From: an uncultured Lentisphaeraceae bacterium
GTDB taxonomy: Bacteria > Verrucomicrobiota > Kiritimatiellia > RFP12 > DVOR01
Direction of reading: 5' to 3'
Assembly: GCA_949282555.1 (NCBI GenBank)
Contig: CASDPK010000001.1
Location: 1-64,000 of the forward strand
DNA: 64,000 nucleotides
Each line of letters opens with the position of its first letter. Position 1 is the first letter of the stretch. The notes beneath the pieces were generated by a model. That model made no database searches, was not told the origin of the DNA, and worked only from the letters and a program-made list of their open reading frames with translations. The position numbers were made by a program, and so were the translations under genes. This document shows positions 51,002 to 52,713 of the stretch, piece after piece.

Positions 51002-51574
51002 TTACGCCACCTTGCGCCGCAGCGCCACCCCCGCAACCCCCAACGCAAGCAACGCCAACACCGTCGGCTCGGGAGCGGCAGTCCCGGAAATCACCGTACT
51101 GTCGAGGAAGTCCCCTCGCACTGGATCCCCTAAACCCAAGAAAGCCTCTGCATGTTTCCCGTTGTTCATGATAGTCTGCAATCCTGCGGCGCTCCAATCA
51201 TCTGTTCCCCATGAGATCCAGAGACTCGAGGGGTTCGTCGGATCGCTTGTCGCATCTCGGAGCACGAAGTGCATATATCCATTTCCAAACCACGAGCTAT
51301 AATCCTCGGGAAGTTGGAAGGTCGTTTTGAAATGAAGGTTTCCGTTTGCCCCAATAGTGGCTGTTACCTTCTGCGACACGTGACTTTCGGTAGCGATTGT
51401 CGCACTCTGCTCCCGAGGAGAACTGATGATGGCAAAGATCAGCTCTACCGTTCCGCCCTCAGGTTGGAATTTCGTGTTTTGGGCATAAAAGTCCACAGTC
51501 CAAGGCTCCATGACCGCCCGAAGGGGGGCGACAGCCAGCAACGCCAACGCGAGGGCAAACAACATTCGTTTCAT
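51002..51574 (-). CDS. PEP-CTERM surface protein
   Basis: The 190-residue protein has a signal peptide (MKRMLFALALALLAVAPLRA), a soluble beta-rich middle of about 135 residues (ELIFAIISSPREQSATIA, FQLPEDYSSWFGNGYMHF), and the sorting tail APEPTVLALLALGV plus ALRRKVA. The tail should be recognised by an exosortase/archaeosortase-type enzyme and removed on export to the outer surface; no such enzyme gene lies in the window. The last 69 coding bases match those of the frameshifted paralogue with two differences, while the bodies are unrelated. AGGAG lies 7 bases before ATG. Its promoter holds a G10 tract. Confidence 0.88.
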   Translation of the reverse strand: MKRMLFALALALLAVAPLRAVMEPWTVDFYAQNTKFQPEGGTVELIFAIISSPREQSATIATESHVSQKVTATIGANGNLHFKTTFQLPEDYSSWFGNGYMHFVLRDATSDPTNPSSLWISWGTDDWSAAGLQTIMNNGKHAEAFLGLGDPVRGDFLDSTVISGTAAPEPTVLALLALGVAGVALRRKVA

Positions 51575-51598
51575 GATGTTCTCCTGTCTTTTCTTGGA

Positions 51599-51617
51599 TG
51601 TACGGCCAACCCGTACA
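51599..51617. promoter_or_regulatory. Leader dyad of PEP-CTERM gene 2
   Basis: TGTACGG-CCAAC-CCGTACA is a perfect 7-bp inverted repeat just downstream of the predicted start, either an operator or an mRNA hairpin. Confidence 0.55.
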
Positions 51618-51632
51618 TAAAAACACTGATAT

Positions 51633-51663
51633 ATTCTACCCCCCCCCCGTGGCGATAAGTCAA
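51633..51663 (-). promoter_or_regulatory. Promoter with a homopolymeric G10 tract in the spacer
   Basis: Minus strand TTGACT (51663-51658), a 19-base spacer and TAGAAT (51638-51633). The ten spacer bases next to the -10 are all G (plus strand C10, 51639-51648). Losing two G would give the optimal 17-base spacing. The remaining gap up to 51870 shows no gene. Confidence 0.78.
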
Positions 51664-51870
51664 GGTTTTATTTATCCTGCAACATAATCTGTTGTTTCTG
51701 CGATGAATACAATGGATACAGAAGGGGATATTCCCCTCTTTGTCAGTGGCAATAATGGGATACGATGTGTGTTTTTGCTTGATAGAGGGTTTACAGATGG
51801 GCAGTGCGAGGGGTGCCTCTTTCCGGACGCAGGGGGGTAGTGGCGATGTGCCGGTTGGTTGGGCATCTGT

Positions 51871-51882
51871 TACAATGGCGGC
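51871..51882 (+). promoter_or_regulatory. Leaderless promoter element of the TonB-like gene
   Basis: TACAAT (51871-51876) ends six bases before ATG 51883. No ribosome site and no clear -35. Confidence 0.55.
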
Positions 51883-52713
51883 ATGGGAAGCAATGAGAAA
51901 AAGGCACTGCGTGTTTCGGTGGCTGCGAATGCGGTCATCTTCGTGTTGTTAGGGTCCGTATCCTTGGGAGGCTGTTTCGCCCAGCCGAAGGAAGAGATCA
52001 TCCCGATGGAGTTTTTGGTGGTGACGGAGGAGAACGCGGCGGATCGTTTGGCCGAAGAGCCGAACGAAGCGCGCGAACCCGAACCCGAGCCGCCGAAGCC
52101 CGACCCCTTGCCCGAACCCAAGGAGGCCGATCCCCCGCCGCCTCCGCCGCCCGTGCCGGACCCTGACCCCCTGCCGCCGCCCCCGAAGAAGGAGGCGCCC
52201 AAGCCCAAGACGGAAAAGCCCAAGGAAAAGCCGGCGGAGAAGAAACCCGATCCGCCCAAACCCAAGTGGAAGCCCACGCCGGTGAAGATCAGCAAGGTGC
52301 GCGTGGGCCCCGTGACCACGGGCAAGCGCGACGTCACAAAGGCGGCCACGCAAAAGGCCCTCTCGCAGGCGGAGATCCAGCGGCTTCTCAATGCGGGCGC
52401 GAAGTCGGGCAATCGGAACCAAGTCCCGCCCAATGAGGCCTCGCGCTGTTATGGCGTCATTGCGCGGGCGTTCCGGGAGAAGTGCAACGCCTACGGCCTC
52501 GAATCCTCCCCCACGGGGCGCGATCCCGTGCTCACCGTCACCTTTGGCCCGGGGGGAAGCATCCGGAACATCGCCGTGAAGACCTCGTCGGGCGATTCGG
52601 GCTACGACCGCCAGGTGCTCCAAGCGTGCCGACAGGTGCGCCGGGTGGACGGCCTTTCCTCAACCTTTCTCGCATCCTACAAAACCGTGGATATCCGCCT
52701 GAGCGTGGAGTGA
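51883..52713 (+). CDS. TonB/TolA-like energy-transducer protein
   Basis: The 276-residue protein has an N-terminal membrane anchor (ALRVSVAANAVIFVLLGSVSLGG), then a Pro/Glu/Lys-rich rod of about 110 residues (EPEPEPPKPDPLPEPKE and similar) that can span the periplasm. The C-terminal TonB-like fold contains CYGVIARAFREKCNAYGL, LTVTFGPGGSIRNIAVKTSS and YDRQVLQACRQVRRVDGL. It would couple the inner-membrane proton motive force to an outer-membrane receptor or envelope process. ExbB/ExbD are not adjacent. I chose ATG 51883 from the leaderless promoter. The next gene follows 26 bases downstream, probably in one operon. Confidence 0.85.
   Translation: MGSNEKKALRVSVAANAVIFVLLGSVSLGGCFAQPKEEIIPMEFLVVTEENAADRLAEEPNEAREPEPEPPKPDPLPEPKEADPPPPPPPVPDPDPLPPPPKKEAPKPKTEKPKEKPAEKKPDPPKPKWKPTPVKISKVRVGPVTTGKRDVTKAATQKALSQAEIQRLLNAGAKSGNRNQVPPNEASRCYGVIARAFREKCNAYGLESSPTGRDPVLTVTFGPGGSIRNIAVKTSSGDSGYDRQVLQACRQVRRVDGLSSTFLASYKTVDIRLSVE

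Follow-up and report, generated by a model that had tools for sequence, protein, structure and literature searches.

Can a run of guanines placed between the two core boxes of a promoter act as a switch for a surface protein in an uncultured Kiritimatiellota bacterium? This question was raised by a locus in the stretch of 64,000 nucleotides (hereafter the window) taken from one contig of the genome. A preliminary description, made from the sequence alone, had noted that TTGACT and TAGAAT were separated by 19 bases, ten of which were consecutive G, in front of a PEP-CTERM gene. It had proposed that slipped-strand changes in the number of G would alter the spacing around a 17-base optimum and turn expression up or down, as in Neisseria porA and opc. 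It had also stated that surface proteins of this type were commonly phase-varied but that no such case was known for PEP-CTERM genes.

Direct reading of the sequence confirmed the observation. On the minus strand, the -35 box TTGACT (51663-51658) was followed by the 19-nt spacer TATCGCCAC+GGGGGGGGGG (51639-51657), whose G10 run (51639-51648, C10 on the plus strand) abutted the -10 box TAGAAT (51638-51633). A Shine-Dalgarno sequence AGGAG (51585-51581) was located 6 nt before the ATG at 51574, and the promoter was 58 nt upstream of the gene (51574-51002, minus strand). A short palindrome, TGTACGG-GTTGG-CCGTACA (51599-51617, minus strand), was present in the predicted 5' untranslated region and was a possible operator or hairpin. 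The pattern TTGACN{0,12}G7N{0,8}TANNNT occurred once in the window and in 0 of 100 dinucleotide-preserving shuffles. However, this -10 box had no TGn extension, and the 19-nt spacer fell outside the 16-18 nt rule of a simple promoter scan, so the site was not listed by that scan. The gene encoded a protein of 190 aa with a signal-peptide-like N-terminus and a C-terminal PEP-CTERM motif (PEP motif, hydrophobic stretch and basic end) that scored above both curated cut-offs (TIGR02595, 19.8 against 16 bits; PF07589, 26.3 against 20.7 bits). A strong hairpin resembling an intrinsic terminator (10 pairs, 9 of them G-C) was located just after the stop codon at 50972-50949 on the minus strand, so the gene looked monocistronic. 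We searched 16 congeneric genomes for orthologues in order to compare the run length of this promoter, but the middle part of the protein had no homologue in any of them.

The next question was whether this promoter was an isolated case. The preliminary description had itself suggested looking for G/C tracts in other PEP-CTERM promoters as a way to check its proposal, and the outcome was strongly positive both in this genome and across its genus. The genome (2.43 Mb, 65 contigs, 94.3% complete) contained 15 runs of G or C of at least 10, and we examined the surroundings of all of them (L numbers below denote the stretches retrieved around individual sites). Seven runs were located between recognisable -35 and -10 boxes, all in front of surface proteins with a signal-peptide-like start. 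Namely, these were the window site, TTGACA-G13-CGTGA-TATCTT (L001), TTGCGCAAAT-G10-TGG-TACTAT (L002), TTGAC-G10-AGGTGTGA-TAAGGT (L004), TTGACA-G12-TGG-TAATAT (L007), TTGACA-G10-TGCGGGGTGG-TATAGT (L011), and TTGC10-GTCGGTTGTGC-TATCGT (L014). When runs of 7 or more were included, 12 promoter-spacer runs were found, of which nine preceded PEP-CTERM genes and three preceded large proteins with a signal-peptide-like start. In total, the genome had 24 PEP-CTERM loci and one exosortase locus (PF09721, 125.7 bits). Several of the remaining PEP-CTERM genes were located in tandem clusters without such a promoter (L038, L041), and one carried a G10 run inside its coding sequence instead (L013). The neighbouring PEP-CTERM gene in the window (50397-49702) had a run-free version of the same promoter type at 50457-50428 on the minus strand, TTGACA-18 nt-TATCAT, with TG before the -10 box and only G4 in the spacer.

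Three or four of the other long runs were inside envelope or surface genes. In addition to the PEP-CTERM gene of L013, where the run was also in frame, runs were found in frame in a bacterial sugar transferase gene (L008) and in a gene for a giant protein with a GDSL-lipase domain (L010). In L006 (4039-4049; G000:C4:151838-151848), a small membrane protein read as two halves in different frames on either side of a G11 run, as a switched-off contingency gene would. That protein had no confident family, so this case was a lead.

The same architecture was observed in most of the congeneric Kiritimatiellota genomes, several of which were 'uncultured Kiritimatiellaeota' MAGs (CALXMT, CALXMV, CALXMW, CALXOF, CALXSE, CALXSF). 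The pattern TTGACN{0,10}G8 was present in 14 of the 17 genomes of the genus, this one included, and the reversed control gave zero except for one match in one congener. When a -10 box was also required (TTGAC-Gn-TA), 12 genomes of the genus gave 81 matches against 0 for the reversed pattern, while most of the phylum gave scattered single hits. Some other families of the order also showed it but with other flanks, for example TTGACAAAA..-G9-12-TAAAAT. Three congeners (G002, G014 and G016) had no site of this G class, although G016 had sites of the second class described below. Of 60 unique congener sites that we retrieved, 56 had a TANNNT -10 box, 33 preceded a PEP-CTERM ORF and 9 preceded a giant ORF of more than 800 aa. 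The arrangement was not limited to secreted proteins, since two nearby poly-G promoters (L102 and L103; genome G003, contig C6, at about 24710 and 27591) preceded zinc-ribbon membrane proteins, one of them with a CD225 domain. A second class of promoters, TTGC(8-10)-TTATGCTANNNT, consisted of TTGC(8-10) followed by about 11 nt, usually ending in TTATGC, and TANNNT. This C class gave 43 matches against 0 in the genus (some sites were matched twice), and all 20 sites examined preceded PEP-CTERM genes. Moreover, AAATAA was conserved just upstream.

We then asked what was constrained in these promoters. Among 54 G-class sites of the genus, the spacers ranged from 14 to 20 nt with the mode at 17, while the run itself was 8-14 and the rest of the spacer was 3-10 nt; three strings with uncertain -10 ends were left out of these statistics. 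When runs and flanks were re-paired at random, the spacer variance rose from 1.68 to 2.95 (P=0.0014), so that total spacing was what selection held. In the C class, C8, C9 and C10 corresponded to spacers of about 16, 17 and 18 nt, which were observed at 9, 17 and 2 sites, respectively. Orthologous G-class promoters with alike flanks differed in run length (G12/G11, G11/G10 and G10/G13), with one pair equal at G11, and two further pairs were G10/G12 and G9/G8. These comparisons were between species, and neither reads nor strains of a single species were examined, so variation between isolates or within a population was not shown. Contigs ended near these runs more often than expected (5 of 65 within 300 bp, 0.88 expected). 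This weak signal fitted unresolved length variants but also poor sequencing of G runs.

The interpretation given in the preliminary description was thus supported, with two refinements: PEP-CTERM genes had already been linked to phase variation by another mechanism, and the site was one of a genome-wide set rather than a lone case. In our preferred reading, in which we are fairly confident, the run is a contingency element. Slipped-strand mispairing during replication would gain or lose G (or C in the sister class), changing the -35/-10 spacing of a sigma70-type promoter by 1 nt per step around the 17-nt optimum and so turning one surface-protein gene up or down. In this view, the lineage uses the device on many PEP-CTERM (exosortase-sorted) and giant secreted proteins, and each cell would show its own combination. 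The anatomy, its repetition across the genome and genus, the gene association, the centring on 17 nt and the length differences between orthologous promoters came directly from the sequences, whereas slippage within a population and its effect on transcription were inferred; no transcription start was mapped and the dependence of expression on run length was not measured. For the window gene, the assembled G10 gave a spacer two nucleotides above the optimum that was predicted to be weak, so the assembled state was probably one of low expression, while G8 would give 17 nt. Loss of mismatch repair was considered as a driver, but a MutS was present in the genome, so slippage need not be fast.

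The main alternative was that the run is a fixed structural or protein-binding part of a dedicated promoter class, for example bound by a regulator or setting DNA shape, with its length held by selection and without meaningful switching. The C-class promoters were indeed stereotyped (AAATAAnnC-TTGC8-10-NNNNNTTATGCTA) and varied only between 8 and 10. Moreover, an unrelated uncultured Clostridia MAG (Lapin-032__bin86; L139, L148, L153, L167, L169, L172, L213 and further contigs) had many copies of TTGACAaRCA-G8-TGGTATAAT, which, where complete, were in front of lipoprotein genes of one family. The run was G8 in all 7 sites compared, which a purely structural role would also give, and this was independent use of the motif in another phylum, apparently without length variation. 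On the other hand, the run and flanks of the G class varied while total spacing was constrained, the orthologues differed by 1-3 nt, and runs of this length are expected to slip, as at Neisseria contingency loci. In addition, interrupted or run-free versions existed before sister genes (the window site at 50457-50428 and L036), so the run was not needed for a promoter. We therefore regard a fixed element as possible but unlikely.

Still less likely was that the run varies but acts through something other than spacing, such as regulator binding or open-complex formation, as discussed for opc or tprL. In the C class the run began inside the -35 hexamer (TTGCCC), as described for opc (PMC7864442), and the A-rich AAATAA was conserved upstream; however, the spacers centred sharply on 17 nt in both classes and flank length compensated for run length in the G class. 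Some G10 runs are expected by chance under independent bases in a genome of 65% G+C, and the draft assembly could contain two-colour sequencing errors. Nevertheless, the reversed-pattern controls were zero in this genome and all but zero in the genus against tens of hits, the window shuffles gave nothing, and the same placement recurred in many separately assembled genomes. Chance or artefact was thus refuted for the set as a whole, although single sites remain possible. Control by DNA inversion was not supported either, since no inverted repeat of 11 nt or more was found in 51400-52000. A sigma54 site was also not found, as the window had no match to TGGCAC-N5-TTGCW with up to 1 mismatch, although this consensus was crude and the negative result was weak.

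The closest described system was the porA promoter of Neisseria meningitidis (van der Ende et al. 1995, as described in PMC7864442), which also has poly-G between -35 and -10, a 17-nt optimum and an outer surface protein as its product. Here the organism was unrelated, there were many promoters per genome instead of one, the product was a PEP-CTERM/exosortase substrate, and switching has not been observed. The N. meningitidis opc promoter (Sarkari et al. 1994, as described in PMC7864442) has a poly-C run that includes the -35 region and resembles the C class, but the latter was a stereotyped family before many PEP-CTERM genes with a conserved AAATAA upstream. In Akkermansia muciniphila, which belongs to the same phylum in the GTDB sense, reversible promoters are present near PEP-CTERM genes (inverton group 138, PMC11892184), but there the mechanism is DNA inversion at inverted repeats. 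The proteobacterial PEP-CTERM genes of one lineage also share an upstream signature (Haft et al. 2006, PMC1569441), but it is a sigma54 -24/-12 motif without homopolymers, associated with PrsK/PrsR. We found no report of homopolymer-spacer promoters for PEP-CTERM genes or in Kiritimatiellota among the open-licence papers searched. Single poly-G promoter-spacer sites were also seen in cultured species, before a long surface-protein ORF in Streptococcus sp. sy004 (L171; G11, spacer 18) and before a porin-like gene in Parasutterella secunda (L189; G10), and these were candidate phase-variable loci. The class of mechanism was already known (porA, opc), and the present case was notable for its scale.

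Homopolymer-spacer switching is known from a few promoters of host-adapted pathogens, while here the same logic appeared as a recurrent promoter architecture of a surface-protein family in an unrelated, uncultured lineage. It also offered a regulatory signature for PEP-CTERM genes outside Proteobacteria, where such motifs were said to remain to be found (PMC1569441). In the boldest reading, which we consider somewhat more likely than not, a whole bacterial genus has put a large share of its exosortase-sorted surface proteins under individual slippage-switched promoters of two stereotyped classes (poly-G and poly-C), creating a combinatorial, stochastic surface coat in uncultured Kiritimatiellota. 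Such an arrangement predicts that cells of one strain carry different surface coats.
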